The notes beneath the pieces are model-generated. The model was not told where the DNA came from, did no database searches, and saw only the letters and a list, made by a program, of their open reading frames with translations. Position numbers and translations under genes: made by a program. Below are positions 19,496 to 49,095 of a stretch of 49,938 nt of DNA, piece by piece. Source of the DNA: an uncultured Acidobacteriota bacterium (GTDB lineage: Bacteria > Acidobacteriota > Terriglobia > Terriglobales > Acidobacteriaceae); contig CAILAC010000006.1 of NCBI GenBank assembly GCA_903832055.1, positions 1 through 49,938 of the forward strand. The letters run 5' to 3'. Every line of letters begins with the position of its first letter. Position 1 is the first letter of the stretch.

Positions 19496-19528
19496 CACTA
19501 CCTCTGATTTCCATGACCATGCGGCCAG

Positions 19529-31687: not shown

Positions 31688-31724
31688 CCAAAACAAAGGC
31701 GGCCACGCATGAATCATGGCCGCC
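31688..31724 (-). terminator. Terminator after the alpha/beta hydrolase gene
   Basis: GGCGGCCA (31698-31705) pairs with TGGCCGCC (31717-31724); on the minus strand TTTGTTTTGG follows. It lies between the hydrolase stop (31793) and the start of the CRTAC1 gene. Confidence 0.65.
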
Positions 31725-31792
31725 GTGCGCTTTTCCACCTCTGCCCAAAAATGGAGACTTCAGTCCCGCCCTTCATCCTTGGGCTGAATCCC

Positions 31793-33437: not shown

Positions 33438-35495
33438 CTACTCGATGCGCCAGGCAAAGTTATCAAACAGCAGTCCGTCACCGTGCTGGAAATCAAAGGA
33501 CACGACCGAGCTTCGGTCCACCCATCCTGTGCGCACATGTTTCAGCTCGCCGGCCTTCACCGTGTAGCTCACCTCGCGCAGCTCCGGGCATCGCAAGGTC
33601 ACCGTTGCATCATCTTTGCCATTGTTGTACACGTCAAAGCCGTCCAGCACTCGCGGCGAATCAAAGCGGAAATGCGCATGCTCCGCCTTGCCATCGGCCA
33701 GCGCAAGATTGAATGTTCCAAAGGCTCCCGCCGGCACATGAATCTGCCATTCGCCAGGTGCCCAATCCATCGCTCCCGAGGGATATTGCCCCGCCAGAAT
33801 CGTGCCCGCCGCCTGATGCGGATCATCAAAGGTCACAATCTGCGAGGGCGCAGCTCCGCCCGCTCCCTGCACATCCAAATCCCGTTCGCCATCATGCCGT
33901 ATCCGCAGGACATGCGTCTTTTCATCAAACGTATAGCCGGGCGCATCCAGATCCTTGCGCTCTGCCAGCGCCTTGCCGCCGGCCGTCACAAACTCCGGTT
34001 TGAAGTCCACCCGCAGCACTTCCTCCGCATTCGCATCAAAGGTGGAATACGTCACCGCAGACTGCATGTACTTCACCTTGGTCACAACCGACGTACTGCC
34101 CAGGATGTGCGATGCATCCTCCGGCGCCCACTCCGGTACCGCGTAAAACGAATCCATCATTCGCCTCGGCCCATCCGCGAATTCGTCGGTAAACCACCAT
34201 TGGCCCGCAAACGGACTGTGCGCACCTCCGGGCAATCCCTGAAAATAGGTGACCCAGTTGAACGAGCGATACGCGGCATCGCGATAAGCAACGTCGCCCG
34301 TCTTCGCGTAGTAGAGCGCTTCCACTGCCGCCAACCGCGCCGTGTGGTCGTCGCAGCACTGGTTGGGCTCGTTGCAGCAGAAGTTCACTCCGTTCCCCTG
34401 CTCGTTCGTGATTGTCGCACCGTGGACAATGTACTTCGCCCACTTCGGCGTCGTCTTTACCCACTCAATCACACCGCGTGCATGCTCTTTCCAATCCGGG
34501 TCCTTGTCAGGGTGCAGCAGCACGTACCGCGCAAACTCCAGCGGAATCACCTGGTTCATATTGCCCATGGAAGGCACAGTGTCTTCGAAGTACCCCACCC
34601 ACACATTCTTCGCCAGGGGATACTTCTTGAACCACTCCCAAACTGCCGATCGCACCCGCCCGTATTCGGTTACATTGCCCTGACCCAGCCGCATCAACTC
34701 GTCAAAAAGCATGATTGGTTCCACGACGTTGGCGGAGTACGGCCCCATCGCCCCACCCGGCGCCTTGCCATCCCGGGCATACAGCCGCACCGGCCATGGC
34801 GAGTGCGCTTCATCCCCCGGCGTCCAGTTCTTCACCAGGGCATCCGCACACCGAATTGCGGCCCGCAGATACTTCGTATTCCCGGTCAGCTCATACAGTC
34901 GCAAATAGCCGAATCCGTCCTCGCCCACGACATGCGGCTCCACGTAGTCTTCGCCCAGGTTGCTCCAGCCGCTGTAGCGCTCCGCGCCCGGATTCGCTGA
35001 GGCATAGGGAACCTGTGACCAGGCGTACCCTTCCGGCGTCAATCCATGGTTCAGTTCGTAGTCCACAAACGACTGCAGAAACTCAATCGTCCGCGCATCG
35101 CCGTTGTACGCATACAGCCGCTCCAGGAATCCCACCATCATCGCCCGCAGATAGCCGGTTGAATTGGCCCAGTGCGGATCAGGCATCATCTCAAACGTCG
35201 TGCGGTCGAAATCGAAGCAGCAGTAGTAGTAGTGCAGACGCTGGCGGTTGTACTGGTCCCACAGAATCGTCCACTGGCTCTCGAAATATCCCTCGTAGGA
35301 ATAGCCAGTGCTCGTCGCCATCGGCCACGGCAACAGCTTTCCTCCAGCATCCAGTTGCACCGGCCGTCCGGCAATGGACTGCGCATCAATCGTCGTCACC
35401 GGTTTGAATGGGGGCTGCTGTGCCTGTGCCAGTGCCGTTGTTGCCGCTGCTGCCAGTAGAACTGCCGCCAGTAAGCCATTCCAGATACGTGCCAT
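33438..35495 (-). CDS. Secreted alpha/alpha-toroid (six-hairpin-glycosidase-like) protein, unknown specificity
   Basis: 685 residues from ATG 35495 with a signal peptide (MARIWNGLLAAVLLAAAATTALAQ). The middle part (about 60-480) has the helical-hairpin texture of six-hairpin glycosidases: STGYLRAMMVGFLERLYAYNGDARTIEFLQSFVDYELNHG, DGFGYLRLYELTGNTKYLRAAIRCADALVKN and RLAAVEALYYAKTGDVAYRDAAYRSFNWVTYF. The last 200 residues form a beta-sandwich that may bind carbohydrate. Vicinal cysteine pairs are unusual: C92-C93 (YYYCCFDF), C373-C374 and C380-C381 (FCCNEPNQCCDDH). They could bind a metal or form disulfides. I do not recognise a characterised family. The nearby receptor and hydrolase suggest a glycan target (inference). 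Confidence 0.7.
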   Translation of the reverse strand: MARIWNGLLAAVLLAAAATTALAQAQQPPFKPVTTIDAQSIAGRPVQLDAGGKLLPWPMATSTGYSYEGYFESQWTILWDQYNRQRLHYYYCCFDFDRTTFEMMPDPHWANSTGYLRAMMVGFLERLYAYNGDARTIEFLQSFVDYELNHGLTPEGYAWSQVPYASANPGAERYSGWSNLGEDYVEPHVVGEDGFGYLRLYELTGNTKYLRAAIRCADALVKNWTPGDEAHSPWPVRLYARDGKAPGGAMGPYSANVVEPIMLFDELMRLGQGNVTEYGRVRSAVWEWFKKYPLAKNVWVGYFEDTVPSMGNMNQVIPLEFARYVLLHPDKDPDWKEHARGVIEWVKTTPKWAKYIVHGATITNEQGNGVNFCCNEPNQCCDDHTARLAAVEALYYAKTGDVAYRDAAYRSFNWVTYFQGLPGGAHSPFAGQWWFTDEFADGPRRMMDSFYAVPEWAPEDASHILGSTSVVTKVKYMQSAVTYSTFDANAEEVLRVDFKPEFVTAGGKALAERKDLDAPGYTFDEKTHVLRIRHDGERDLDVQGAGGAAPSQIVTFDDPHQAAGTILAGQYPSGAMDWAPGEWQIHVPAGAFGTFNLALADGKAEHAHFRFDSPRVLDGFDVYNNGKDDATVTLRCPELREVSYTVKAGELKHVRTGWVDRSSVVSFDFQHGDGLLFDNFAWRIE

Positions 35496-35613
35496 TGCTA
35501 TGCCCGCCTCAACTCTTTGCTGGATTTCCGGAGTCCCGGAATCGTTGGTAATCCTAACCCGCCACAGCATCAACCGGCCACACTGTTGCGCGTGTGTGCG
35601 CCGAAAGCCCTGC

Positions 35614-35655
35614 ACATGAAAATCAGTCCCCGCCTGACTTGCAGCAAGCGGGGAC
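35614..35655 (-). terminator. Terminator after the second Oar-like receptor
   Basis: GTCCCCGC (35626-35633) pairs with GCGGGGAC (35648-35655). On the minus strand the hairpin is followed by TGATTTTCATG. It lies 17 bases after the receptor stop. Confidence 0.7.
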
Positions 35656-35672
35656 CAAGGTCACAACATGAC

Positions 35673-38600
35673 TCAGAAGCTGAATCTTGCCTGCAGGTCA
35701 ATCGTGCGCGATCCCAAGGCACCCTGCGCAAGGCCAAAGTGCGGGTCCTGCGTGTTGTTGTCGATGTTTGTCAGGTTCACGTTGTTGAACAGATTGAACA
35801 TGTTGGCGTGGATGTCGACGCTGCCGTGGCCGCCAAGCACCTTCATCTCCGGCAGGCCAAACGACTTGCCGATGGTGGCATCCACGTCAAAGTAATGTGG
35901 TCCCCTGAAGCTGTTGCGGCCAATTGCGGGTGCGCACGGAATCGGCCCAGGCTGGGCCACGCCATTCACAATATCTGCCATCGTCGGGCCCGCCGTATAG
36001 CAGCTCTCATCCACGGGGAAGAGCGTCAGCCCGTCGCTTGCCTGTGTCTTGAAATTCCCGGGCTTGAATCCGCCAGTGTAGTGGAAGGGACGCAGCGGCG
36101 AACCGCCGCCGTAGTTGCTCCCGCTTCCCTGGTAGACAGCATCGCCGCCGGTGTTCCCGTCAACCACGGTGAACGGGAAGCCCGAGTGCGCATTCAGAAT
36201 ACCGCTCAACGTCCAGGCACCCAGCAGCTTCTTCGCCAGCCCATGATGGCTGGCAAAGAAGGTTGGCGTCCACACTCCGTACAGCTTCTCCGCCGTCTTC
36301 ACGTCAAAGTCTGACGGGCCGCGGTTCAGTTTCATCGGAAAGTACTCATAGGCGCCGCTGGCTGATCCGCAACTGCAGGTGCCTCCCTGCGCCGGGGCAT
36401 AGTTGTTGGAGCCATCATCGAGGCCCTTCGCCAAACGAATGTCGCCTTCCAGTTCAAACTGCTGTCCGAACCGGTGACGGATACCCGCGAGCCCGCCGTT
36501 GAAGCCGCTGCTGCCCTCGTCGTCGTACATGTTCATCGACTGCACGGAAGGATTAAACGCATCCATCCCGTTGCCCTGTGCCGAGAACTTCGCATAGTCG
36601 TACAGCGTGTAGTTGAACAGGCGCGTCTGGTGGCGCGTCTGGGTTCCCTGGTAGCCCAGGGTGGCCACCCACTGGTGACCCAAATCGTATTCCACATCCA
36701 GCGAATACCGCAGCGCGCGTGTCGTGGGCAGCTTTGCCTGGTAGGCCTGCAACGGCGTCAGAGCAAAGTTCTGCCCAGGGACCGGCAGGTTCGTCGTCGG
36801 ATCAAACGGGGCCGTCGCCGCCGGGTTCGCGGCATACCCGTAGAACGAATGCGAATTCCCAGGGAAGGTGCTTGGCCCGTAGAGAATCTGGTTGCCAATC
36901 AGCGTCAGGTTGCCTGCCAGGTACGGAGGATTGTTGCGCCCGTCCAGCGTGTTCGCCTCCTGCATGCCGGTGTAGCCCAGGCCAATGCCGCCACGCAGCA
37001 CCAGCCGCTGTTTGCCAAATCCGGGCAGCCAGTTGAATCCGAACTGGGGACCGAAATCCGCCTTGTCGGCCTGGAAGAGGTTGCCGCCCTTGCGCACATG
37101 AACTCCAGTAATCTCGCTGGTTCCCTGCCCCAGCTCAACCACCGCGAGGTGACCGTACTTCTCGCTCATCGGCCCAAAATACTCATACCGCAGGCCCAGC
37201 GACAGGGTCAGGTTCGGCTTCACCTTGTAGCTGTCCTGCGCAAAGAAGCCATAGAGCGTCTCGCGCGTATCCCGCCGGAAGTCTGTCGGCACACCCGTCT
37301 GCGCGCTGAAGGTTGCCGACTCCGACACCGGCGCATCATTCAGCATGTCCCACATGTTGTTGAAGTTGTAGGTTGGCCGCGCGCTCCACGGCGAAGCATC
37401 CAGGAAGAGCAAGCGGCTCACTTCGCCGCCGAGCTTCAGCGTATGCGTCTTGTACACCTTGGTCAGCACATCTTTGCCGGCATAGGTACTCTGGTTAAAC
37501 TCCGCCGGCGATCCGACGCCAAAGTTGTTCGGGCTGCCAATCGATCCAATCGAGTTCACACCCTGCAGGTTGCCAAGCTGAATGATCGGCAAGCCAAACG
37601 GTGCATTCGGATTCGAGTTCATCGAGTTCCATATCCACCCGCCGTTGTTCGCACGGAACTCATTCTGCATCGATCCAGAGAACGTGTGGTCCCACAGCAT
37701 CGTCAACGATCGATTCTGGAACTCTGAGACAAAGGCGTTCATCGGCCTGGCTGCGCCGTTGTAGGAGTTGTTCCTGTTCGGCACGTAATAGCCCACCACC
37801 GCCAGCAAATCCTTCTGCGAGAGGTTGTAGTCGAGGCGGCCGTTGAACTGCTGCTCATTGGTCGGGCTTGTGTAGTTCTGGTTCAGATACACGAGGTCAG
37901 CCACTCCGTCCAGACCTCCGCCAACACCCGGCGTGCCATTGCCCTCGAATCCGGGGTCGCTCGTTCCCAGCGCTGTCGTGAGCGGGCCGCCAATGTCCAG
38001 GCCGCCCGGATAGGTCTTGCAGTTTTCACCTTCCGTCAGTCCAATATCGGCGCAGGTGTGCTGATCTGGAATCGCCACTCCGTTAATCGGTGCCGCTCCG
38101 TTGTAGCTCATGAACAGCTTTGCAGCGCTGTTGGCGGGCGCCAGCGCGCGATAGTCCGGCGTCTCCCACCAGCCCTGCGCATTGGCCGCTCCATTGGTCT
38201 TGATGGTCTCGTACGAGAAAAAGCCAAAGAGCTTGTTATGGACAATCGGCGCTCCGACCGATCCACCGAAATCATTCAGCTTCGTGTTGTTGCGCATCGG
38301 GGAGTTGCCCACACCGTCGTACTTCTGGTAGGCATTGAGTCCCGGCCGCGCGGCGCGCCAAAAGAACGAGCCATGATAGCTGTTGGTGCCATTCTGTGAG
38401 GTAACCTTCACCTGTCCGCCGCTGTACCTTCCATCTTCGGCGTCGTAGTTGTTCGTCACCACATTCACTTCTTTCACTGAGTCCATATTCGGCGTGATAA
38501 TCGCGGTTCCTGCCCATGCCACGCTGGTGACGCCGATGCCGTCAATCTGGTAGTTGTTCACTTCGCGGCGTCCGCCGCCGATAGAAACCTGTGGGCTGTT

Positions 38601-39206
38601 CTCGATGGCAAAAATGCCGGTCGCCGGCCCTGCGCCGCCCGGCCCGTTGTTGCCCGGCAGATTGCTCACACCACCGCCGGCCGACTGCGCTCCATCGCCA
38701 AACGCACCCGGAGCGAGCTGCAGAATCTGGTAGACGTCACGCCCAGGCGCAGGCATGTTCTGCACCTCCATGGTGGAGATGGTTGTTCCCAACTGAGCGT
38801 TTTCTGTATCCAGCACCGGTGCGACATCGGCGCTTACCGTCACCGTCTCAGAGGCCGTGCCCACCTCCAGCACAACATTCACGGCATTCTCCTGCTCGCC
38901 CAGCACTTCCACATTGGCAAGGACCTTCTTCTTGAAGCCTTCCTTCTCCACCGCAAGCTGATAGTGGCTCGGCGGCAGGCCACCGATGCGGTATGCGCCC
39001 GTCTCGCCGGAAACCGCCGTCTGCACGCGGTTTGTCTCCAGGTCAGTCAGGGTGACGGCAGCGCCGGGAATCGCCTTGTTCTGCGGGTCCACAATCGTGC
39101 CCTGTACTGAGGCGCGGTACTGGGCAAACGCCCCCGGTGCCGAGAGAAGAATCGCCGCTGCAGCCAGAAATGCCGTGCAGATGACATTGGTCCATCGAAT
39201 TCTCAT
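35673..39206 (-). CDS. Oar-like TonB-dependent outer-membrane receptor (paralogue of the interrupted one)
   Basis: 1177 residues from ATG 39206, preferred over the frame opening at 39254 because AGGG is about 7 bases before it and it begins a signal peptide (MRIRWTNVICTAFLAAAAILLSAPGAFAQ). A carboxypeptidase-regulatory domain follows (ASVQGTIVDPQNKAIPGAAVTLTDLETN), then the plug (STMEVQNMPAPGRDVYQILQLAPG, NYQIDGIGVTS) and a beta-barrel ending in LQARFSF. From about residue 573 it aligns with the receptor fragment at 140-1883, which shows how much of that gene is missing. It lies 58 bases after the DeoR gene on the same strand and may share its transcript or regulation. The ligand is unknown. 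Confidence 0.88.
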   Translation of the reverse strand: MRIRWTNVICTAFLAAAAILLSAPGAFAQYRASVQGTIVDPQNKAIPGAAVTLTDLETNRVQTAVSGETGAYRIGGLPPSHYQLAVEKEGFKKKVLANVEVLGEQENAVNVVLEVGTASETVTVSADVAPVLDTENAQLGTTISTMEVQNMPAPGRDVYQILQLAPGAFGDGAQSAGGGVSNLPGNNGPGGAGPATGIFAIENSPQVSIGGGRREVNNYQIDGIGVTSVAWAGTAIITPNMDSVKEVNVVTNNYDAEDGRYSGGQVKVTSQNGTNSYHGSFFWRAARPGLNAYQKYDGVGNSPMRNNTKLNDFGGSVGAPIVHNKLFGFFSYETIKTNGAANAQGWWETPDYRALAPANSAAKLFMSYNGAAPINGVAIPDQHTCADIGLTEGENCKTYPGGLDIGGPLTTALGTSDPGFEGNGTPGVGGGLDGVADLVYLNQNYTSPTNEQQFNGRLDYNLSQKDLLAVVGYYVPNRNNSYNGAARPMNAFVSEFQNRSLTMLWDHTFSGSMQNEFRANNGGWIWNSMNSNPNAPFGLPIIQLGNLQGVNSIGSIGSPNNFGVGSPAEFNQSTYAGKDVLTKVYKTHTLKLGGEVSRLLFLDASPWSARPTYNFNNMWDMLNDAPVSESATFSAQTGVPTDFRRDTRETLYGFFAQDSYKVKPNLTLSLGLRYEYFGPMSEKYGHLAVVELGQGTSEITGVHVRKGGNLFQADKADFGPQFGFNWLPGFGKQRLVLRGGIGLGYTGMQEANTLDGRNNPPYLAGNLTLIGNQILYGPSTFPGNSHSFYGYAANPAATAPFDPTTNLPVPGQNFALTPLQAYQAKLPTTRALRYSLDVEYDLGHQWVATLGYQGTQTRHQTRLFNYTLYDYAKFSAQGNGMDAFNPSVQSMNMYDDEGSSGFNGGLAGIRHRFGQQFELEGDIRLAKGLDDGSNNYAPAQGGTCSCGSASGAYEYFPMKLNRGPSDFDVKTAEKLYGVWTPTFFASHHGLAKKLLGAWTLSGILNAHSGFPFTVVDGNTGGDAVYQGSGSNYGGGSPLRPFHYTGGFKPGNFKTQASDGLTLFPVDESCYTAGPTMADIVNGVAQPGPIPCAPAIGRNSFRGPHYFDVDATIGKSFGLPEMKVLGGHGSVDIHANMFNLFNNVNLTNIDNNTQDPHFGLAQGALGSRTIDLQARFSF

Positions 39207-39264
39207 GCGTAATCCCTGCCTCCACTGAATCTTGTGCTGATTTCTTTCCGTCACTGCCAGCCCG

Positions 39265-40044
39265 CTATGAGGCCACCAGCACCGTGGTCAACTGCTGCAG
39301 CCTCAGCAGGTCTTCGCGCGCGACCCCGCTGTCTGTGATGATCATGTCGCACTTCTCCACCGCACACAGCCGATACACCGCCTCGGTGCCAACCTTGGTG
39401 CTGTCCAGCACGAGGATCCGTTCGCGGCCGGCCTTGAGAAATGCCCGCGGCATCTCCGCGTCAAAATTCATCACACCCTTGCTGAAGGAAAGCGCCGCAG
39501 CGCCAAAGAAGACCTTGTCCGCGTAAAGACCCGACAGATACTCGGTCACCGCGCCGCCAGAGAGGTCATGCCCCGTCCGGCGGTACTCGCCGCCAGTAAG
39601 GCGGACATGGACGCTCGGGGCACCGGCCAACTCCTCCAGCGCCGCCAGGGATGTTGTCACCACGGTCACATCCCGCTTCAATGCCAGGTTCCTCGCCACA
39701 TAGCGGGTGGTGGTGCCACTGTCCAGAACGACCGTCTCGCCATCCTTCACCAGCCTTGCGGCCTCGCGGCCAATCGCTTCCTTGGCATGGGCCATCTTCG
39801 CTGCGCGCTCCAGAAAGCTCTTTTCCATGGAGCCAGTAGGGGCAACCATCGCTCCGCCGGGCGTGCGAATCACCAGGCCCGACTCTGCCAGGCGCCCCAG
39901 CACCCGCCGAATTGTCATTTCAGACACGCCATGCGCAATCGCCATTTCAGCAATCGTCGCCGTGCCACGCTCCTTGACATACAGCAGAATCTGGCTCTGC
40001 CGGTCTTCAGGACTTCGAGATGGGGTTTCGTTAGTCTTTAACAT
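39265..40044 (-). CDS. DeoR-family transcriptional regulator
   Basis: 259 residues from ATG 40044, the usual length for DeoR regulators of sugar metabolism. The N-terminal helix-turn-helix is DRQSQILLYVKERGTATIAEMAIAHGVSEMTIRRVLGRLAESGLVIRTPGGA. The C-terminal DeoRC effector domain (GETVVLDSGTTTRYVARNL, VRLTGGEYRRTGHDLSGGAVTEYL, KVFFGAAALSFSKGVMNFDAEMPRAFL, MIITDSGVA) normally binds a phosphorylated sugar. The longer frame to 40221 lacks support. There is no ribosome-binding site; a 19-base palindrome lies just upstream of the start codon. It is divergent from the SDR-DegT-kinase-EamA operon and likely controls it, itself and perhaps the receptor downstream. Confidence 0.92.
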   Translation of the reverse strand: MLKTNETPSRSPEDRQSQILLYVKERGTATIAEMAIAHGVSEMTIRRVLGRLAESGLVIRTPGGAMVAPTGSMEKSFLERAAKMAHAKEAIGREAARLVKDGETVVLDSGTTTRYVARNLALKRDVTVVTTSLAALEELAGAPSVHVRLTGGEYRRTGHDLSGGAVTEYLSGLYADKVFFGAAALSFSKGVMNFDAEMPRAFLKAGRERILVLDSTKVGTEAVYRLCAVEKCDMIITDSGVAREDLLRLQQLTTVLVAS

Positions 40045-40047
40045 TTC

Positions 40048-40066
40048 GTTGTGATTTAATAACAAC
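40048..40066. promoter_or_regulatory. Candidate DeoR operator (palindrome at the deoR-type gene start)
   Basis: GTTGTGATTTAATAACAAC is a 19-base dyad: GTTGT.ATT.AAT.ACAAC, mismatched only at one symmetric pair and the centre. It ends 4 bases from the regulator's start codon, so a bound protein would block its own expression. Confidence 0.5.
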
Positions 40067-40396
40067 ACCACAGAAACGCAAGAGATGTCAAGAATTTTTC
40101 TCCCCGCCCCATTCCGCCTCCCACCCCAAGAGATAACGCTTGAAATGGCCCGATATTGCCCATACACCTGCAAGCTTTTCAGCAGGCCCTCCAACCCGAC
40201 CAGCCTTTGCCGCTGCCCCAAAAGAGAATTTGACAGCTCCCACCATCTATGATTCTGTTAGTAATGCACATCATCGATGTTTAGTTTTGCCATCATTGGC
40301 AACCGACTGCACCCGCAATTCCAGACGATTTCCGTCTGCCGCGGTCACCGCCCGCGGGCGGATTGCAACTCTCTTTCCTGCTTCGTGAGGTGGCAA
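40067..40396. promoter_or_regulatory. Divergent promoter region of the DeoR gene and the aminotransferase operon
   Basis: No gene is seen. On the plus strand there is a perfect -35-like TTGACA at 40230-40235, with TATGAT 12 bases later and TTCTGT at 17 bases, so the -10 is unclear. On the minus strand TTGACA occurs at about 40087-40092 (complement TGTCAA). A TATTAA lies within the palindrome at the regulator start. Confidence 0.4.
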
Positions 40397-41314
40397 ATGA
40401 CAGCCCATGGAATTGCCAAGCCAGTACTCCTCATCCTTGGCGCTCGCGGCTTTTTGGGCAGATTTGCCGCGGCGGCCGCCGAGAGTTCGTTCCGCGTCAT
40501 CCGAGCTGACCGTGATATCAGCGACCCCGCCACAGATATCCGCATCGACATCACAGACCCAGCCAGCGTCTCTGCGGGCTTTCTCAGCGTGATGCCGAGC
40601 GCCGTGCTGCTGCTGGCCGCCATCTCGGATATTGACCGCTGCGAACGTGACCCTGCCGTGGCGCAAAGGGTGAACCTGGAAGGCGCGGTACATGTTGCGA
40701 ATGCCTGCGCAACCCATGGGGCGCGGCTGCTGTTCACCTCTACCGGCGCAGTCTTTGACGGTACTCAGCCCGAGTACCGCGAGGCCGACCCGCCCACGCC
40801 GCTGAGCGTCTACGGCTGCACCAAAGCCGATGCAGAAGCCGCCATTTGCTCCGCGCTTCCGGCTGGAATCGTGGTTCGTGTCTCGCTCGTGCTCGGCCGC
40901 TCAGGCCAGGCGGGCACCAACTCGCTCGTGGATGGACTCATCCGCCGATGGCAAGCTCAGGATGTCGTCTCCGCTTCCACCACGGAAGCGCGCAACCCAA
41001 TCGACGCCCCCACCCTTGCCGCCTGGTTCGTGGAGCTGCTGCAGAACCGCGATGCCTCCGGCATCTTCCACGCCGGCTCGACCGGCATGATGACCCGCCT
41101 CGAAATTGCTCAGGCGCTCGCGCAGGGTCTTGGATTCCCCGAATCCCTGGTGCGCGCTGAAACCACCCCACCCCCCGGAAGAGCCCCCCGCGGCGCTCGC
41201 CAGTTCCTGATTCCGGAGCGAATCGCACAGTTTTGCCGGACCCCCGCACCCACCTGCGACGAAGTCCTGAAAAGGAGTTTGAATGAACCTGCCCAAGGCA
41301 ATCCACGAGCTTGA
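40397..41314 (+). CDS. RmlD-like NAD(P)-dependent sugar reductase/epimerase (extended SDR)
   Basis: 305 residues from ATG 40397 with GAGGTGG upstream. It has an extended short-chain-dehydrogenase fold: nucleotide-binding GARGFLG near the N-terminus, DI.DPASV, LLLAAISDIDRCERDPAVAQRVNLEGA, STGAVFDGTQPEYREADPPTPLSVYGCTKADAE (catalytic YxxxK, with Ser/Thr before it), VVRVSLVLG and a short C-terminal substrate lobe. This pattern is that of dTDP-4-dehydrorhamnose reductase (RmlD)-type enzymes, but the neighbours are not a rhamnose pathway. Its role as reductase or oxidase in a small sugar pathway with the following genes is an inference. Its end overlaps the aminotransferase start by 32 bases. Confidence 0.85.
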   Translation: MTAHGIAKPVLLILGARGFLGRFAAAAAESSFRVIRADRDISDPATDIRIDITDPASVSAGFLSVMPSAVLLLAAISDIDRCERDPAVAQRVNLEGAVHVANACATHGARLLFTSTGAVFDGTQPEYREADPPTPLSVYGCTKADAEAAICSALPAGIVVRVSLVLGRSGQAGTNSLVDGLIRRWQAQDVVSASTTEARNPIDAPTLAAWFVELLQNRDASGIFHAGSTGMMTRLEIAQALAQGLGFPESLVRAETTPPPGRAPRGARQFLIPERIAQFCRTPAPTCDEVLKRSLNEPAQGNPRA

Positions 41315-42491
41315 ATTCGGCCACGGGTCAATTTACGGCGACGAAGAACGGAAAGCTGTTCTGGAGGTGCTCGATGCCTCGGCACCCTCCTGCGGTCCAA
41401 AGGTCAAGGCCTTTGAAGATACCTTTGCCGCTTACTGCGGCGCGGAGTTTGGGCTTGCCGTGACCTCTGCCACCACCGGGCTGGAACTGGCCATGATTGC
41501 CGCCAACGTCGGGCCCGGTGACGAAGTGATCACCACCCCCATCAGTTGGATCTCCACCGCCAACGTCATCTCTGCCCGCGGAGCCAAGGCGGTTTTTGCC
41601 GACGTCGAAGCGGGCACACTCAATCTCGACCCCGCTTCAGTTGAGCGCCGCATCACGCCACGTACCCGCGCCATCCTCCCAGTCCATCTCTACGGCCAGT
41701 GCTGCGACATGGACGCCCTGCGCACGATTGCCGACCGGCACAACCTTGTGCTGGTGGAAGACGCCGCCCACGCCGCCGGCGCATCCTGGAATGGCCGCAA
41801 GGCCGGAATCCTCGGCGACATCGCCGTCTTCAGCTTCCACCAGCAGAAGAACATGGTCACCCTCGGCGAAGGCGGCATGGTCACCACCTCCAACCGCACC
41901 TTCTATGAGCGCATGCTCTCTTACCGCTCCCTGTGCTGCCGCACCTACGACCCCAAGGGGAAATATCTACCCATCGATGAGTCCGTTCATCCCATGGGCA
42001 AGCGTTACTGGCATCTTGAGTTTGACGGTATCGGCTTCAACTTCCGCATGACCGACGTGCAGGCCGCCGTTGGCCTGGTGCAGCTTGGCCGCCTGGATGG
42101 GATGAACCAGCGCCGCCGCGAAATTGCCCGGCGCTACGCCGCAGGTCTCAGCGGCATCGCCGGCATCCAGCTTCTCGCCGAGTTGCCCCAGGCCTACCAC
42201 GTCTTTCACATCTTCGGCATTCTCATCACCGCAGGGTTCCCCCTCAGCAAGGAAGACTTCATGTGGCAGATGTATACCGGCCACCGAATCAAGGTCTGGT
42301 CCCACTACATGCCCATCCACCTCACTGAGGTTTACCGCTCGCTCGGCCACGCTCCCGGCGAGTGCCCCGTCGCCGAAAGCCTCTTCGACCAGTACGTCAG
42401 CATCCCCATCCATCCCCGCATGACTGACGAAGCCGTGGACTACGTGATTGACAGCATCCGGGAATTGGCCGGCAGCGGAAAGGCGCAATGA
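41283..42491 (+). CDS. DegT/DnrJ/EryC1/StrS-family PLP-dependent sugar aminotransferase
   Basis: 402 residues; AAGGAG lies 6 bases before the ATG, inside the end of the upstream gene. Family features: G....E...VLEVLDAS....GPKV..FE..FA.Y.G, TSATTGLELAM.A..VGPGDEVITTPISWISTANVI (phosphate/PLP pocket), PVHLYGQCCDMDAL, VEDAAHAAGA (PLP-ring Asp), and Schiff-base lysine K189 in FSFHQQKNMVTLGEGGM. GFNFRMTDVQAAVGLVQLGRL is also typical. These enzymes transfer an amino group, usually from glutamate, to a keto-sugar or cyclitol. The SDR upstream could make the keto substrate. It overlaps the kinase gene by ATGA (42488-42491). Confidence 0.92.
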   Translation: MNLPKAIHELEFGHGSIYGDEERKAVLEVLDASAPSCGPKVKAFEDTFAAYCGAEFGLAVTSATTGLELAMIAANVGPGDEVITTPISWISTANVISARGAKAVFADVEAGTLNLDPASVERRITPRTRAILPVHLYGQCCDMDALRTIADRHNLVLVEDAAHAAGASWNGRKAGILGDIAVFSFHQQKNMVTLGEGGMVTTSNRTFYERMLSYRSLCCRTYDPKGKYLPIDESVHPMGKRYWHLEFDGIGFNFRMTDVQAAVGLVQLGRLDGMNQRRREIARRYAAGLSGIAGIQLLAELPQAYHVFHIFGILITAGFPLSKEDFMWQMYTGHRIKVWSHYMPIHLTEVYRSLGHAPGECPVAESLFDQYVSIPIHPRMTDEAVDYVIDSIRELAGSGKAQ

Positions 42492-43894
42492 ACGATTTCC
42501 TGCAGACAGTCGCAACCCTCCGCGAACCCGGCAACCTCCTCGCAGGCTCCAATCCCGTCTTTGTTGCCCGCGCCCCGGGCCGCCTCGACGTGATGGGCGG
42601 CAACGTCGACTACACGGGCGGCCTCGTGCTGGAAGCCACCATCCGCGAAGCCACCTGGGCTGCCGCACAACTGCGCACGGATGACCGCATCCTCCTCGTC
42701 AATCCGCAAATGGAGACAAGCGGCTGGCAATCTCGCGTCGAGGTCTCCCTCGACCAGGTCGCCACTGTCCAAGGCACCAAATCGCTCGTCAATTGCGACC
42801 CTGCAGTTCGTTGGACCGCCTATGTCCTTGGTGTCTTCCACCTGCTCGTCACCCGCTGGCCCTCGCTCGCCAACCGGGGCATCACCCTTTATCTTGACTC
42901 CCAGGTTCCGCTGAACAAGGGTGTCAGCTCGTCGGCTGCCGTGGAAGTGGCCACCATGAAGGCCGCCGCCGCTGCCTACGGAATCCCGCTCCTGGGCATC
43001 GAGCTCGCGGAAGCCTGCCAGTGGGTGGAGAACGTAATCGCCGACTCTGCCTGCGGCATCATGGACCAGGCCACCAGCGTGCTCGGCACGGAAGGCCACA
43101 TGCTGCCGCTTCTCTGCCAGCCGTGCAAGTTGCATCCCCTGGTCAAGCTACCCGCAGGCCTCGCCCTGTGGGGCATCGACTCCGGCGTGAAGCACGCCGT
43201 CAGCGGCATGGAATACGAGGCAGCCCGCGCGGCCGCCTTCATCGGCTACCGCATGATCTGCGACTGGGAGGGGCTGCCCGTCCAATTCGACCCATCCGGC
43301 GGCATTCCGCGCTACACCGATTCGCGCTGGAACGGCTACCTTTCGATGGTCCCGGTCTCCGTCTTTCGCTCGCTTTACGAACCCCGGCTCCCGGAGCTCC
43401 TCACCGGCCCGGAAGTCCTCGCCTCGGGAGCGCCGCACTACGACCCCTTCACCCAGATTCGGCCCCAGGCCCGCTACCACGTCCGCGCCTGCACCAAATA
43501 CGCCATCGAGGAACAGAACCGCATCGAGCTCTTTGTGGAGCTGCTTGGCAACCTTGGCCCGGAGCCCAGCGACAGCGCGTGCCGGCTTCTCGGCGACCTC
43601 ATGCTCCAGTCCCACTGGTCCTACTCCGAATGCGGCCTTGGCAGCGCAGCCACTGACCGGATCATCGAGCTGGTCCGCCAGCAGATGGGCCCCGGTCGCC
43701 TCTACGGCGCAAAGATCACCGGAGGCGGCGCCGGCGGGACCGTTGTCGTCCTTGGCGATGCCAGCGCCGAGCCGTGCTTCCGCAGTGTCGTGGAAGAGTA
43801 CGGCGACGAGACCGGCTCCGCACCTTATGTCTTTACCGGCAGCTCCATTGGGGCTGACGCCTTCGGCATCCGGGTACTCGGGGGTCGCTCATGA
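42488..43894 (+). CDS. GHMP sugar kinase, L-arabinokinase-like
   Basis: 468 residues. GHMP-kinase motifs: N-terminal VARAPGRLDVMGGNVDYTGGLVL, ATP loop VPLNKGVSSSAAVEVATM, and C-terminal GAKITGGGAGGTVVVL. The first motif, together with CQWVENVIADSACGIMDQATS, LCQPCKLHPLVKLP and WGIDSGVKHAVSGMEYEAAR, matches the kinase half of plant L-arabinokinase (ARA1) better than ordinary galactokinase, as far as I can recall those sequences. It would phosphorylate a sugar at C1. The natural substrate could be L-arabinose, galactose or an amino sugar made by the preceding enzymes. It is translationally coupled on both sides by ATGA overlaps. Confidence 0.85.
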   Translation: MNDFLQTVATLREPGNLLAGSNPVFVARAPGRLDVMGGNVDYTGGLVLEATIREATWAAAQLRTDDRILLVNPQMETSGWQSRVEVSLDQVATVQGTKSLVNCDPAVRWTAYVLGVFHLLVTRWPSLANRGITLYLDSQVPLNKGVSSSAAVEVATMKAAAAAYGIPLLGIELAEACQWVENVIADSACGIMDQATSVLGTEGHMLPLLCQPCKLHPLVKLPAGLALWGIDSGVKHAVSGMEYEAARAAAFIGYRMICDWEGLPVQFDPSGGIPRYTDSRWNGYLSMVPVSVFRSLYEPRLPELLTGPEVLASGAPHYDPFTQIRPQARYHVRACTKYAIEEQNRIELFVELLGNLGPEPSDSACRLLGDLMLQSHWSYSECGLGSAATDRIIELVRQQMGPGRLYGAKITGGGAGGTVVVLGDASAEPCFRSVVEEYGDETGSAPYVFTGSSIGADAFGIRVLGGRS

Positions 43895-44832
43895 GCGAAA
43901 CCCTGCCGGCCCACAGCTCACGCCGCAGCACACTGTGGTACTTCTTCCTGCTCGCCCTGGCCTCGCTCATGTGGTCTGGCCAGGGAACCGCCGTCAAGCT
44001 CCTTGACCCCTTCCTCGGCCCCATTGCCATCACCTTCCTTCCCTTCTACCTGACCACGCTGCTCGCCATTCCGGTGCTGGTGCGCATGCGCCGCGGGCAA
44101 GCCGACCGTCAGCCCATCAGTCGGCGCGACTGGATTCGCTTCGCCATCGCAGGCATAGGCGGTCAGGTCCTGGCCCAGCTCGGGATGACCTGGGGCGTCA
44201 GCGTCTCGCTCGCTTCCAACGGCGCAATCCTGAATCTGCTCATCCCCGTCATCAGCGCTGTGCTCGCCTCCTTCATGCTGGCCGAACGCATCTCCGCGCT
44301 GCGCGTCGCCTCGCTTCTCATCGGCCTCGTCGGAGTCGGGCTCATGTCGCTCGGCGACCTGCATCAGGCCTCGTTCTTCCAGTCCCGCTTCTTCATCGGC
44401 AACCTGCTCATCCTCGGCGGCACGGTCGGGTCCAGCTTCTACAACGTCTACTGCAAGGGCCTGATGCAGCGCTTCAGCGAGCTGGAAATCCTGATCTACA
44501 GCTACTTCACCGCCTCCATCGCGAGCATCCCCCTGCTCCTCTGGGCTGAGCCAGTTCCCTGGCACAACTTCCTGCGCTTCGACTGGAAAGCCTGGGCCGC
44601 CTTCGCCTTCCTCGCACTCTTCATGTACGGCGCGTCCATGCTGCTGTTCTTCGCTGCCCTGGTCCACCTCGACGTCACCACCGCCTCAGTCAGCCTGTAT
44701 CTGGTGCCGGTCTTCGGCGTCATCCTCGCCATCACCGTCCTGGGAGAAAAGCTGAACCTCCCGGAGATCATCGGCGCGGCTATCGTCCTCATCGCCACCC
44801 TGCTCATCGTCCGCTACGACAACCCTTCCTGA
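43891..44832 (+). CDS. EamA/DMT-family transporter
   Basis: 313 residues, very hydrophobic, with about ten predicted transmembrane helices in two EamA halves (roughly 15-150 and 165-310). The first starts STLWYFFLLALASLMWSGQGTAVKLL and ends SAVLASFMLAERISALRVASLLIGLVGVGLM; the second ends ASVSLYLVPVFGVILAITVLGEKLNLPEIIGAAIVLIATLLIVR. Drug/metabolite family members are mostly exporters of small polar metabolites, less often importers. As the last gene of the coupled operon (ATGA overlap with the kinase) it probably moves the pathway's substrate or product. It ends 10 bases before the convergent dabA. Confidence 0.9.
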   Translation: MSETLPAHSSRRSTLWYFFLLALASLMWSGQGTAVKLLDPFLGPIAITFLPFYLTTLLAIPVLVRMRRGQADRQPISRRDWIRFAIAGIGGQVLAQLGMTWGVSVSLASNGAILNLLIPVISAVLASFMLAERISALRVASLLIGLVGVGLMSLGDLHQASFFQSRFFIGNLLILGGTVGSSFYNVYCKGLMQRFSELEILIYSYFTASIASIPLLLWAEPVPWHNFLRFDWKAWAAFAFLALFMYGASMLLFFAALVHLDVTTASVSLYLVPVFGVILAITVLGEKLNLPEIIGAAIVLIATLLIVRYDNPS

Positions 44833-44842: not shown

Positions 44843-47359
44843 TCAGGCGGCAGCTTCGGCGGGAAAGCCTGCGAAGTCCGCCGGAGTCCAACTGCTGCGG
44901 TGGTAGCGATGGATTTCCGACTGCCCGGGTTCAATCTGAAAGAGGTGCAGCCAGCCGTTCTCCACCAGGTTGCGAACCATGGCGTGCTTCTGCACAATGC
45001 CATCGATTGCGCTGCGATCCGCTTCAAGGAAGACACTGAGGCGGAGCGGGGTGTGGCGCAGGCTGGTGCCGTCGTGGAGCGACTGCAGGGGCAGTCCAAT
45101 CCGCAGGTCGCCGCCGTTGCCTTCAAAGACGCCGATGTGGCCACCGACGACATTGTGGAGCACCTTGTTTCCGCTGCCGTAGAGGCGGTTGTCGACGGTG
45201 GAAGCGTAGTACTGCATGTTGATCCAGTTGGTGACCAGCATGGGTGCGGTCATGATGGATTCGAGGACCCGGGCCGTGGGGTCCAGGGTCGCATCATACT
45301 CGTGCAGAAAGACACGCCCGGCCAGGTTGAGTCCCTGGCTGCGCCGGCGGGGAGCGACGAGGAAGGCTGCGTTGTTGACCAGCCCCCACTCCGGCCGGAC
45401 CTGGGACCAGTCCTGGGTGCGCCGTTCAAAAGCTGCCAGGAGCTGGTCTTTGTCGAGACCGGCCGCTGCGGGGATGCCGAGGGCGGCGGCACGCTCTGTG
45501 CGGGCGAGGTGGCCAGCCTGCCGCAGCCACAGCTTCAACCGAGCCACGTCGGCATCGTGCGAGGCGGGGGCGAGGTCGGTGTCGAAGAGGGTGACAACGT
45601 CGGTAGTGGTGTTGTGCAGGCCAGCCAGGACATGAGTGGTGGCGGGCAGATGGATGCCGCGGGTTGCGAGCCCTGCGCGGATGGCGGGGTCGTTCAGCAG
45701 ACTGGCGAGCAGGCGGGCGTTGACCTCGCCGGTTTGGCCGCCGCAGGCGCCGCAATCGAGGCCGGCGGCGTGGGGGTTGTTGAGGCTGGCGCTGCCATGG
45801 CCGACGAGCAGCAAAAGGCGGGCAAAGTTCTGCTTGAGGCTCATGCCGGCGAGGATGGAAGCAAGCTGGTCGCAGAGCCGCCCGGTGGCCGCAGCGTCCT
45901 GGGCTGACGGGGGTGCCAGGCAGGGCCGCAGCTTTTCGGGATTGCCCAGAGCTGCCTGGGTGGGCTCGGATGCGGGCTTGCCTACTGTGTTGCGGACGAG
46001 ATCGGCGGCAAAGAAGATGCCACAGGACTCGACAAAGGTGAAGGTGGAACTGGCCGAGGAGCGGAAGTCCTTCCAGATGGAGCGCAGGGCGAGCTTCCAA
46101 CGGCGAGTGCCTTTGAGCTCCTCGTCGGCCGCAGTCAGGCCACAGCTTTCCGTGGCATGCATGGCCGGTGCAAGAAGACCCGGCAACTGGGGTCGAGATG
46201 CATTGGCGCCAAGCGGAGTATAGGCGATCGGCAGGCCGAAAAAGCCGGCAAAGCCCAGGGTCTGCGCCTGGTTTGTGGTGGCCTCCAGCGCGCGGCGGAA
46301 GACCTCCGAGCGGACATCGATGCAAAAGGCTGCCTGCACCGCAACTGTTCCGGCGTCGCTGTTGGCCGCGGGCAACTGCCCGGCTTCGACCGTGGAGAGT
46401 GCGGAGATCAGCCGCTTCTGGCAGGCCAGTTCCAACGCATCCTGGAAGAGCCAGTCGCGCCGGGAATTCTCCTCATAGGCGGCCAAGTCGCGGGGCAGGC
46501 TGCGCCAGGCTTCGGTCCACTGCGGCGGAGCGGTAGAGCGGAGAAGGTGCACGAAGGCGAAGGTCTCCCAGGCGGCACGGATGGCGAGCAACTGCACGAT
46601 GTGGTCGTCGTCCTGTTGGGAGAGCCGGGCCTGCCAGCGCTGATACGCGCACCAACTGGCCCAGCCGTTGATGCTCATCAGCAGCGCGGTCAGGTAGGAA
46701 GACCAGTGCTGTTGCGGGACGGGCAGGGTGGCGTGTGCGAGGTCCAGCATCGCCATGGGATCGGTGGGCAGCGTGCGCGCAAAACTCCGCAGCATCCCCA
46801 GGCCCATGAGCAAGCGAGGGGAGCGATCTTTTTGCGCGTGCCGCAGCCAGCTCTGGTAGAGGTTTGCCTCGGGCCGGGGCTGCCAGGTGGCCTGGGCGTG
46901 GTCAAAGTAGGCGGCGCAGTGCTGGCTGAGGTTGTGCGTGACGAAGTCGCAGATGCTCATGCCATGCACCAGGTCCCGCCGGGCATCCGCCAGCTCGGTC
47001 ATACGCGGAATGCGGGGGCAGGAGGGACTCTGCTGCTCGAGTTCCGCCAGAAGCGACTCCACGGTGGCGGAAGCGCCGGCCGCGTGGATGGCGGCAGCCA
47101 GATCTTCCCGCTGAAATGCGCCGGCCTGCCACTGCCGGCGGAAGTATGCGCGGGGCATGCGCATGGGCGAGCCACTGCGGGATTCCAACTGTACTGCTGC
47201 GGTCTGGATGGGTAGTGCAGCAAGATTCCAGTAGGGATTGACGGCGATGAACTGGTCCAGCGGCCAGGTGGGCGCGATAGCCTGGCAGGCAGCGGTTACA
47301 GCGTCTTCCAGAGCGATATTCCGGGGGATGGCCGGGGATTCGGAGAGGCTGATGTTCAT
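44843..47359 (-). CDS. dabA: DabA, inorganic carbon uptake protein (DUF2309)
   Basis: 838 residues. DabA is the carbonic-anhydrase-like peripheral subunit of the DAB complex, which couples CO2 hydration to ion flow and accumulates bicarbonate. The zinc site is intact: C346 and D348 in FCIDVRSEVFRR, H521 in LLVGHGSAS and C536 in LDCGACGGQTGEVNARLLA. Their spacing (2, 173, 15) is close to that of the characterised Halothiobacillus protein. ATG 47359 is chosen because GGAG lies 7 bases before it and it overlaps the dabB stop by ATGA; the longer frame to 47437 runs inside dabB. The large soluble size fits the family. It is expected at the inner face of the cytoplasmic membrane with DabB. Confidence 0.92.
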   Translation of the reverse strand: MNISLSESPAIPRNIALEDAVTAACQAIAPTWPLDQFIAVNPYWNLAALPIQTAAVQLESRSGSPMRMPRAYFRRQWQAGAFQREDLAAAIHAAGASATVESLLAELEQQSPSCPRIPRMTELADARRDLVHGMSICDFVTHNLSQHCAAYFDHAQATWQPRPEANLYQSWLRHAQKDRSPRLLMGLGMLRSFARTLPTDPMAMLDLAHATLPVPQQHWSSYLTALLMSINGWASWCAYQRWQARLSQQDDDHIVQLLAIRAAWETFAFVHLLRSTAPPQWTEAWRSLPRDLAAYEENSRRDWLFQDALELACQKRLISALSTVEAGQLPAANSDAGTVAVQAAFCIDVRSEVFRRALEATTNQAQTLGFAGFFGLPIAYTPLGANASRPQLPGLLAPAMHATESCGLTAADEELKGTRRWKLALRSIWKDFRSSASSTFTFVESCGIFFAADLVRNTVGKPASEPTQAALGNPEKLRPCLAPPSAQDAAATGRLCDQLASILAGMSLKQNFARLLLLVGHGSASLNNPHAAGLDCGACGGQTGEVNARLLASLLNDPAIRAGLATRGIHLPATTHVLAGLHNTTTDVVTLFDTDLAPASHDADVARLKLWLRQAGHLARTERAAALGIPAAAGLDKDQLLAAFERRTQDWSQVRPEWGLVNNAAFLVAPRRRSQGLNLAGRVFLHEYDATLDPTARVLESIMTAPMLVTNWINMQYYASTVDNRLYGSGNKVLHNVVGGHIGVFEGNGGDLRIGLPLQSLHDGTSLRHTPLRLSVFLEADRSAIDGIVQKHAMVRNLVENGWLHLFQIEPGQSEIHRYHRSSWTPADFAGFPAEAAA

Positions 47360-48999
47360 CGCGTAACTCCCATGGGTTCCAGGGCTTGTGCGGCATCCCG
47401 GCGGAGCGGGCAGGCGCCGGTTTGGCGGGCGGGCCACAGGCTGAAGGTGGCGCGCGTAAAGAGCTCGTCCAGGTAGAGCCCGGCGTAGAACCAGGGATAG
47501 GCGGCGGAGACGAAGCGCCCCCGGGGCCGGGCGCGGACGACGGTTTGGACGGCATAGAGAGCGAAGAAGGCGGCAACCGCGAAGACCAGTGCCAGCCGGT
47601 CCTGCCAGGCGGGGGCCAGTGCCGGGGCGTTCGGCAGCAGCCCGTGGAAGAGCCGCTCAGCCCCGAAGTAGAGGCTGACTACCAGCAGGGCGATTGCCGG
47701 CAGAGTGAACCAGGCGCGGGGCGACCCCACCGCAGCCGTGGAGGCGAGCAGGCCGGCGACCGCGAGACCACTGACGCCGAGGCAGAAGAGCGAAGTGCCC
47801 CGCCAGGGAGCGCTCTGCTGCCAGAGGATGGCACCGAGGCCGGCAATCAGGAGTCCACAGCAGGCACTGAGAGCGGCTGCGCCAGTGCCCGTGCGGGGAC
47901 GGGTGGGCGTCATTGCCTTCAGTCGGGCCAGGTTGACGGTACCGCCGGAGCCGAGGAAGGCGTGTGCCTTGTAGAGCGAGTGACCGAGCAGGTGGAGCAG
48001 GGCGAGGTCGTAGCGCCCAAGCCCGCACTCGAGGAGCATGAAGCCCATCTGTGCGCAGGTGGACCAGGCCAGATGCACCTTGATGCTGATGCGGGTGGTC
48101 ATGACAAGCGAGCTGATGACGGCGGTGAGCGTGCCGGAGATTACCAGGAGGAGCCGTGCCCCGGGGGCCATGGCGAAGACCGGCGCAAGACGGATGAGCA
48201 TGAAGCCGCCGAGGTTGACGACCCCGGCGTGCAGCAGGGCCGAGACCGGCGTGGGGGCTTCCATCACCTGGATAAGCCAGCCGTGGAGCGGGAGCTGCGC
48301 GCACTTGATTATGGCGCTGAGCGAGAGCATGACCGCAGCGGCTGTGAGCCATGCCGGGGGAAAGGGGAGGCCGGCGATGCGGGCCAGCACCTGGTCCATC
48401 TCAAAGCTGCCGGTATGTGTTCCCAGGAGAAGGATCCCGAGGAACAGGGTGAGATCGCCGAGGCGGCTGGCGAGGAATTTCTTGTGCGCGGCGATGACCG
48501 CGGGCTGTCGCTCCGGGTAAAGGGTGAGCAGCCCGTGCAGGGAGAGGCTGGTAAGCACCCATGCGGCCAGAAAGACAAGCAGGTTGTTGGTGACCACCAG
48601 CAGGCAAACGGCGGCCAGGGTGTACATAAGCTTGCGCAGGAACCGGGGCTCTCGGGGGTCGCCCGCCATGTAGCGGCAGGAGTAGTGGACGATGACCCAG
48701 CCGAGAAAGGTAACCAGTTGAAGCATGAGTGCCTCCGCGACATCGCTGCGAAAGCTGAGGACAATCGGACCCCACGCGCCCATGGCAACAATGGAGGCGG
48801 GCCGGGTTGCAGCGCTGATGAGGGCCCGGATGAGGCCAGCGGTGGCCAGCAGCGTGGCGCAGGTGCCGGCCAGCAGCGCGATTGGCCAGGCGCCGCGAGC
48901 GAGGCGGGCCGCGACCAGGCCGGCTGCGAAAAACAGCGCCGCCGGAGCGCACAGCAACGCAAGCGCCAGCGCAGCCCAGAGTTGTGGAAAGAGAGCCAT
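47356..48999 (-). CDS. dabB: DabB, NuoL-like membrane subunit of the DAB carbon-uptake system
   Basis: 547 residues, with many transmembrane helices. It belongs to the proton-antiporter-type (NuoL/MrpA-like) membrane proteins: HYSCRYMAGDPREPRFL, HKKFLASRLGDLTLFLGILLLG, IIKCAQLPLHGWLIQVMEAPTPVSALLHAGVVNLGGFMLIRLAP and KVHLAWSTCAQMGFMLLECGLGRYDLALLHLLGHSLYKAHAFLGSGG. This gives the cation pathway that drives DabA. ATG 48999 has AAAGGA 8 bases before it; the open frame to 49269 overlaps the LysR gene and is spurious. The stop overlaps dabA by ATGA, so the subunits are translationally coupled, as in known dab operons. Confidence 0.9.
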   Translation of the reverse strand: MALFPQLWAALALALLCAPAALFFAAGLVAARLARGAWPIALLAGTCATLLATAGLIRALISAATRPASIVAMGAWGPIVLSFRSDVAEALMLQLVTFLGWVIVHYSCRYMAGDPREPRFLRKLMYTLAAVCLLVVTNNLLVFLAAWVLTSLSLHGLLTLYPERQPAVIAAHKKFLASRLGDLTLFLGILLLGTHTGSFEMDQVLARIAGLPFPPAWLTAAAVMLSLSAIIKCAQLPLHGWLIQVMEAPTPVSALLHAGVVNLGGFMLIRLAPVFAMAPGARLLLVISGTLTAVISSLVMTTRISIKVHLAWSTCAQMGFMLLECGLGRYDLALLHLLGHSLYKAHAFLGSGGTVNLARLKAMTPTRPRTGTGAAALSACCGLLIAGLGAILWQQSAPWRGTSLFCLGVSGLAVAGLLASTAAVGSPRAWFTLPAIALLVVSLYFGAERLFHGLLPNAPALAPAWQDRLALVFAVAAFFALYAVQTVVRARPRGRFVSAAYPWFYAGLYLDELFTRATFSLWPARQTGACPLRRDAAQALEPMGVTR

Positions 49000-49095
49000 G
49001 ATTCGTTCCTTTCTCCTTCCACTTTCGGGCATGCTGACACTTCTGTAAAATGCATATATTGGAAGATATCGTTCTATAAAAAGGATTGAATCCCG
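49000..49095. promoter_or_regulatory. Divergent promoter region between dabB and the LysR gene
   Basis: A 96-base gap, with an AT-rich core at about 49041-49080 containing TGCATATATT and GATATC and a TATAAA close to the LysR start. It should hold both promoters and the LysR-type binding site; no single site could be fixed. Confidence 0.5.

Follow-up and report, generated by a model that had tools for sequence, protein, structure and literature searches.

The stretch analysed here (the window) is a 49,938 bp piece of contig CAILAC010000006.1 from assembly GCA_903832055.1 (G000), an uncultured soil-type member of the Acidobacteriaceae, and it carries in its second half a cluster of sugar-related genes. 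An initial annotation had listed five of them: a DeoR-family repressor, an RmlD-like short-chain dehydrogenase/reductase (SDR), a pyridoxal phosphate (PLP) aminotransferase of the DegT family, a GHMP kinase and an EamA transporter. All five are confirmed by the list of open reading frames (ORFs) and by family profiles, and the ORF coordinates reproduce the overlaps of 32, 4 and 4 bases that had been reported for the plus strand (Table 1). The repressor gene is oriented divergently, so that the plus-strand unit consists of SDR, DegT, kinase and EamA. The minus-strand run extends past the repressor into a TonB-dependent receptor and a barrel protein, named c6, both of which are absent from the initial annotation. 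The gene layout suggests to us two divergent units, one at 33438-40044 and the other at 40397-44832. Two translation starts probably lie downstream of those in the ORF list, the repressor likely starting at ATG 40042-40044 and the SDR at ATG 40397; the latter is likely because the Rossmann motif begins just after this codon and GAGGTGG is found just upstream.

Table 1. Features of the sugar locus in the window.
Feature	Position	Strand	Remarks
Secreted barrel protein c6	33438..35495	-	685 residues; signal-peptide-like start judged by eye
TonB-dependent receptor	35673..39254	-	10 bp downstream of DeoR; from ORF list
DeoR-family repressor	39265..40044	-	PF00455 and PF08220; listed ORF starts at 40221
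Candidate DeoR operator TTGTGATTTAATAACAA	40049..40065	n/a	17-base palindrome
RmlD-like SDR	40397..41314	+	PF04321; listed ORF starts at 40277
DegT/DnrJ/EryC1/StrS PLP aminotransferase	41283..42491	+	PF01041, 389.5 bits
GHMP kinase, galactokinase-like	42488..43894	+	PF00288, PF10509
EamA (DMT superfamily) membrane transporter	43891..44832	+	PF00892, 131.9 bits

Locus architectures in relatives

A first search for relatives yielded 16 loci from named genome bins. The architectures were tabulated by tblastn with seed proteins, which gave 19 distinct loci of type A, eight of type B and 12 of type C; two further rows, duplicates of contigs already listed, are omitted from the type A count. Neighbouring genes were compared with the seed proteins and are annotated in part. 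At E up to 1e-40, the kinase occurs in 13 of 150 sampled family genomes, and at E up to 1e-60 its family occurs in 18 of 396 genomes sampled from the phylum. Bins with the titles Verrucomicrobia/Limisphaerales, Planctomycetia and Hydrogenedentes contain it as well.

Type A, to which the window belongs, has the order SDR-DegT-kinase-EamA. Its kinases are 57-66% identical to that of the window, with an additional near-identical copy in genome G102, and its loci are mostly from Acidobacteriota (one is from a Planctomycetia bin, two are from bins without a named phylum). SDR, DegT and kinase are contiguous in 13 of the 19 loci, which exceeds what chance would give. The initial view that the genes form one unit is thus upheld by the same gene order in other genomes, and they are not separated in most relatives. 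The 13 include L034 (G122), in which the kinase region (7020-8423) has one internal TGA, which may reflect a mistake in the assembly or decay of this copy. One further contig begins at DegT, and L018 has a diverged SDR/DegT pair located after EamA. Of the 19 loci, 16 contain EamA (several genes away in L014 and L016), nine contain c6 by tblastn, to which a separate search adds G102, and four contain an IMPase-like gene (c8). In L006 and L009 the genes for DeoR, receptor, SDR, DegT, kinase, EamA and barrel protein form one run, with c6 and the kinase on the plus strand.

Type B loci (kinase 47-50% identical) combine a secreted GDPD, a receptor, DeoR and the kinase, usually with EamA. The first four are present in all eight loci, EamA and a GNAT gene in six each, and SDR or DegT in none. 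A signal-peptide-like start was seen by eye in seven of the eight GDPD ORFs; the eighth, from L044, is over-extended.

In type C loci a more distant kinase (32-43%) is found with a divergent GalT (9 of 12 loci), often with an IMPase-like protein (7), and with GalE (4), GalM (5) or parts of a sugar ABC importer (7, one of them 33% similar). The distant loci L071 and L072 have none of these. Equivalog cut-offs are passed by the GalT of L066 and the GalE of L062, the only GalT and GalE tested, and the GalM of L066 passes one of two models; GH28 and GH2 genes lie near the kinase in L066. In L061-L070, the divergent GalT and the IMPase-like protein travel with kinases of the type of AbGHMP, a protein of known structure described below. 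In each of the ten type C genomes the divergent GalT (287-325 bits) is on the contig of the kinase. Eight of them have an additional GalT-family match, which reaches 443-497 bits in G377, G437, G296, G370 and G325 and scores lower in G228, G481 and G516. In G157 and G421, no GalT was found besides the one next to the kinase.

Genome-wide distributions were compared by Fisher tests, which ignore shared ancestry. The DegT orthologue (E up to 1e-110) occurs in 5 of the 150 family genomes, all of them among the 13 with the kinase (2e-6); all five carry a type A kinase, and the sixth type A genome, G028, does not have this orthologue. The IMPase-like protein (E up to 1e-40) occurs in 14 of the 396 phylum genomes, ten of which are among the 18 with the kinase (2e-12), although it is on another contig than the kinase in G370 and G421. 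c6 is found in 15 of the 150 family genomes, including five of the six type A genomes (3e-5 for type A, 0.004 for any kinase). In the window genome, which is 98.8% complete, no GalT was found (TIGR00209 at 0.001), nor the IMPase-like protein at 1e-20. Neither a GDPD nor an IMPase-like gene is detected at the window locus by tblastn, the GDPD having been sought at the locus only. L-arabinose isomerase (AraA) was not found in six type A and ten type C genomes and is present in four of eight type B genomes. This distribution is suggestive at most; many bacteria lack AraA. A search for UDP-sugar pyrophosphorylase (PF01704), a candidate for the missing partner, gave no match in 24 genomes, and as the control was equally silent, it is uninformative.

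Encoded proteins, candidate operator and surroundings

The window kinase is a member of the GHMP kinase superfamily (PF00288, 59.2 bits; gathering cut-off 22.3). With the GalK model TIGR00131 it scores 125.3 bits against a cut-off of 226.65, and all GalK equivalogs remain below their cut-offs. A canonical GalK (352.7 bits with TIGR00131) is encoded elsewhere in the window genome. Indeed, 22 of the 24 kinase-bearing genomes have a GalK above this cut-off elsewhere, which in several cases adjoins GalT; the two that do not are G073 (68% complete) and G516. The motif IGEHTDY of GalK is replaced by MGGNVDYTGG in most type A and B kinases (V changed to D in some) and by MGGIADYSG in most type C kinases and AbGHMP, so that the EH pair corresponds to G-N or G-I (MGGNVDY in the window). 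In human GALK1, E and H of this motif contact the C6 hydroxyl. As these residues are replaced, the clade probably takes a sugar which has no C6 group or a different one.

In a tree built by a quick method, nine GalK sequences form a side of their own (SH-aLRT 100), and types A and B are each separated with a support of 98. Type C requires two changes on this tree because L072 stands apart. A second tree supports type A with 91 and places AbGHMP among type C, beside L069. AbGHMP (9ulx/9uly) is the closest relative of the window kinase in the PDB (E 1.3e-114), and no paper was found for it by name. The motif shared by AbGHMP and type C kinases resembles what we take to be that of plant ARA1. The structure model of the window kinase (pLDDT 82.8) retrieves GalNAc kinase and galactokinases with Foldseek. 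Judged by cut-offs, motif and clade, the window kinase is not the cell's galactokinase, which agrees with the initial view that it is no true galactokinase; it may phosphorylate C1. While it does not group with GalK, which would have spoken for a place in a Leloir pathway, its sister clade, type C, does adjoin Leloir-type genes. Literature searches on bacterial arabinokinases and arabinokinase operons, a Leloir-like arabinose pathway, GHMP kinases with sugar 1-phosphates in Acidobacteria or with arabinose 1-phosphate, and gene sets of this kind returned no paper judged relevant.

Both enzymes upstream of the kinase belong to their families but fall short of the cut-offs of function-specific models. 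DegT scores best with PseC among NCBIfam models (TIGR03588, 315.3 bits; 423.5 needed) and misses all equivalog cut-offs. Family membership by PF01041 is accompanied by an invariant PLP lysine (K189 in FSFHQQKN; 10 sequences including that of the window), and its closest-scoring relatives are the biosynthetic PseC and perosamine/ArnB enzymes. The SDR scores 162.2 bits with PF04321 and 143.5 with the rmlD equivalog TIGR01214 (cut-off 224.05); its GAxGFxG (Rossmann) and YGxxK motifs are invariant across eight sequences. DegT and RmlD-type enzymes often act at C4 of sugars, and by family the two could together exchange an amine and a hydroxyl.

The EamA protein matches TPT (42 bits) besides PF00892. 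The receptor was named from its own sequence and from a 25% match to the receptor of L006 (PF25183/PF13620). L006, L009 and L012 share a receptor at 60-63%, of which the window receptor is not an orthologue. c6 has no Pfam match at 0.001 and no NCBIfam match at 0.01, and does not qualify as GH127 by PF07944, a family which its L009 relative matches only at E 0.11. With the c6 model (pLDDT 65.6), Foldseek retrieves xanthanase first (5.6e-8), with GH76 also among the matches, GH127 proteins including HypBA1 at about 1e-6 (query TM 0.26-0.32) and cellobiose 2-epimerases from 2e-5. Only an alpha/alpha-barrel fold is a reasonably safe prediction from the model; c6 might be hydrolase-like and free a sugar from a conjugate.

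DeoR scores 138.1 bits with PF00455 and 46.4 with PF08220, and its best NCBIfam model is AgaR (155.8 bits, below the cut-off of 260). The palindrome TTGTGATTTAATAACAA between the two units is likely its operator and the best candidate that the sequence offers. The pattern TTGTKAWTWNNNNACAA, having been written to fit this site, matches it by construction, so that only the absence of any other match in the 4.57-Mb window genome is informative. The motif TTGT-N9-ACAA was first spotted by eye in the window and then scored elsewhere, using one stretch near DeoR in each of 14 other type A and B loci. It is exact in five (shuffle mean 0.05) and present with at most one mismatch in ten (shuffle mean 1.6), counts which were reached in none of 1000 shuffles. 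The same counts were obtained on redrawn DeoR stretches (16, with two each from L036 and L044). When L044 is left out, because its site falls within the start region assigned to the receptor ORF, the motif remains in 9 of 13 loci. Omitting also the near kin L041 and L039 leaves four exact and seven near matches in 11 loci, neither of which was reached in 1000 shuffles. No such motif was found near DeoR in L006, L009, L036 and L043. The palindrome suggests a local regulator. A promoter and terminator scan gave a signal no better than shuffles, and a repeat search in the divergent region returned short imperfect repeats only.

Comparison with G102 shows a DNA identity of mostly 99-100% over 28-45 kb (28001-44832), with 97-99% within the receptor gene. 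It drops to 92-94% for the 3 kb after EamA and is about 93% just before 28 kb; another near-identical block is found at 7-15 kb. In the alignment, these blocks look like recent recombination between species. A run of glycoside hydrolase genes occupies 6296-19498 (a putative glucoamylase, GH39, GH3, GH3, GH9 and alpha-galactosidase). Three similar FG-GAP repeat proteins are encoded at 3247-5001, 28059-29858 and 29855-31738; the last has FG-GAP and UnbV/ASPIC domains by Pfam, while the other two were recognised by eye in the ORF list. Convergent with the sugar locus, a DabA-type inorganic carbon transporter subunit (852.8 bits) overlaps a Proton_antipo_M/N gene (44843-49269), which we take to be a probable DabAB-like pair in an acidobacterium.

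Function and alternatives

We tentatively interpret the locus as one that regulates itself and serves to take up and process an uncommon, perhaps amino-bearing, sugar conjugate, with a probability of roughly 0.43. A sugar conjugate would enter the periplasm through the TonB receptor, and the secreted barrel protein, or in type B the secreted GDPD, would free the sugar there. EamA would carry it inward across the inner membrane, and the kinase would phosphorylate its anomeric carbon (presumably C1). Between them, DegT and the RmlD-like reductase would exchange an amino group and a hydroxyl. The exchange would probably take place at C4 and would probably be a deamination, passing from amine through ketone to alcohol, which would let the product enter ordinary sugar metabolism. 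DeoR, bound to the palindrome, would repress both divergent units until a phosphosugar appears.

This proposal leans on the relatives. Receptor, secreted hydrolase-like protein, kinase, repressor and mostly EamA persist without SDR and DegT, and for this reason the locus resembles an uptake set. Since type B retains the uptake genes and the kinase without SDR or DegT, the core would be uptake plus kinase. EamA is proposed to be an importer because in types A and B it occupies the place of the ABC importer of several type C loci. For an uptake locus, deamination is the simpler reading of the enzyme pair. We also count the glycoside hydrolase genes of the window, which lie 14-27 kb from the locus, in favour of uptake.

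Several observations weigh against it. The window receptor, at 25% identity, is not the receptor of the other type A loci and may belong to another system. The c6 model is of modest confidence, its top Foldseek match, xanthanase, has a query TM of only 0.20, and c6 also occurs in ten genomes without this kinase. Sequence does not reveal the direction of EamA, and the NCBIfam models that it matches best, all far below cut-off, describe amino acid and amine transporters, one of them an exporter. The pair of DegT and SDR could instead work as an aminating system. Four of the 19 type A loci (L010, L013, L020 and L036) lack SDR and DegT which, together with the diverged pair of L018, makes the amine step optional. 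The window genome has neither GalT nor the IMPase-like partner to take the sugar 1-phosphate further. Finally, G228 has a canonical GalK and GalT about 8 kb from its type C kinase, on the same strand, and hence some type C genes may serve galactose.

Alternatively, an environmental or recycled amino sugar might, once phosphorylated, be converted to a nucleotide sugar that goes into the envelope of the cell itself instead of being burned. C1 kinases of the GHMP fold do feed nucleotide-sugar salvage, as plant ARA1 does, and relatives of DegT and RmlD act on NDP-sugars (nucleoside diphosphate sugars). A GT2-like glycosyltransferase ORF, seen by eye behind EamA near the L010 kinase, would also fit and speaks against uptake for catabolism. 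However, a nucleotidyltransferase is not in the locus and GalT not in the genome (with the neighbours of relatives annotated in part, among which envelope genes may occur), and we consider salvage unlikely.

The initial interpretation was biosynthesis and export: the SDR would oxidise a sugar, DegT aminate it, the kinase activate it and EamA export a small amino sugar. Its structural parts have stood, namely one conserved unit and a kinase other than GalK. All enzyme classes are indeed used in amino sugar synthesis, the relatives with which DegT scores best are biosynthetic, and many EamA proteins are exporters. An exported product has nevertheless become less likely, because in relatives the kinase and EamA adjoin TonB receptors and secreted GDPD or barrel proteins, and because sugar ABC importer parts, found in 7 of 12 type C loci, fit import. 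Type B keeps the core without SDR and DegT, alongside receptor and secreted GDPD, and no nucleotidyltransferase or glycosyltransferase is among the five genes. The absence of a nucleotidyltransferase, which had been pointed out before, holds for 39265-44832 and, as regards GalT, for the whole genome, but not for the sister clade, which adjoins GalT and at times GalE or GalM. On balance, biosynthesis for export is also unlikely.

Catabolism of an opine-like sugar phosphodiester, as by acc of the Ti plasmid, would employ DeoR, an importer, GDPD and an IMPase-like phosphatase together with the kinase. According to PMC4526662, AccR is a DeoR-family protein, AccF a phosphodiesterase and AccG a phosphatase. 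The pTi record has DeoR, ABC, GDPD and IMPase genes consecutively; in type B the GDPD adjoins receptor and DeoR, and four of the 19 type A loci, like seven of the 12 type C loci, have an IMPase-like gene. Yet the GDPD, at 37% identity, is no closer to that of pTi than to the other GDPDs listed. The L009 IMPase-like protein has no match in the plasmid collection (E 0.17-0.26 to the pTi protein), and the window locus has neither gene. The resemblance is thus one of layout only, unsupported by the GDPD and IMPase comparisons with pTi, and we did not retain this identity, which appears improbable.

A plain galactose (Leloir) locus whose galactokinase has diverged is very unlikely: although type C loci hold GalT, GalE and GalM that pass curated cut-offs where tested (GalM one of two), and although G157, G421 and G228 have the GalT arrangements described above, canonical GalK lies elsewhere in most genomes, the EH pair is replaced, the kinase forms a separate clade and the window genome has no GalT.

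Returning to the uptake and processing reading, the type C kinase, GalT, GalE and phosphatase could by their families make up a cycle resembling the Leloir pathway that handles a sugar which is not galactose, arabinose being a first guess because of the presumed likeness to plant ARA1. A bolder version, which we regard as unlikely, is that bacteria possess a second Leloir-like route based on arabinokinase-type C1 kinases, for example from L-arabinose to D-xylose at the UDP level, to which type A adds amine removal from a 4-amino-4-deoxy sugar (e.g. 4-amino-4-deoxy-L-arabinose) for catabolism. The single GalT of G157 and G421 and the layout in G228 suggest that any second pathway may not be purely separate. 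Knowing the kinase substrate would give a function to the whole set of loci, would account for the presence of more than one GalT-family match in eight of the ten type C genomes, and may reveal the breakdown of sugars that carry their amine at a carbon other than C2.

Comparison with known systems

By the way it would work, we class the locus with sugar-utilisation loci and consider it a new variant among them. We do not assign it to GalK, Leloir, PseC, RmlD or GH127, since each of these failed a membership test.

AbGHMP, the nearest solved relative of the window kinase, belongs to the type C clade (65% identity to L069; mean 44% to type A) and differs in its motif, MGGIADYSG instead of MGGNVDYTGG. 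With GalK and the Leloir pathway the locus shares the kinase fold and catalytic motifs and, in type C, the neighbours GalT, GalE and GalM; it differs in the subthreshold score of the window kinase, the replaced C6-contact residues, the separate clade and the presence of GalK elsewhere. Plant ARA1 is presumably similar in the motif of the type C kinases, whereas the window clade has N where type C has I. The C4 aminotransferases PseC, ArnB and perosamine synthase are the best-scoring relatives of the window DegT and share its fold and PLP lysine, but DegT remains below their equivalog cut-offs and is linked to a kinase and a transporter.

Among described layouts, the agrocinopine acc region of Ti plasmids is the nearest one seen, having a DeoR-family repressor, a phosphodiesterase and a phosphatase near an importer, provided that types A, B and C are pooled. 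Types A and B differ from it by a TonB receptor and EamA in place of an ABC importer, and by the additional kinase. Genes of the AccF and AccG type are not at the window locus, and the IMPase-like protein of its relatives is not detectably related to the pTi phosphatase.

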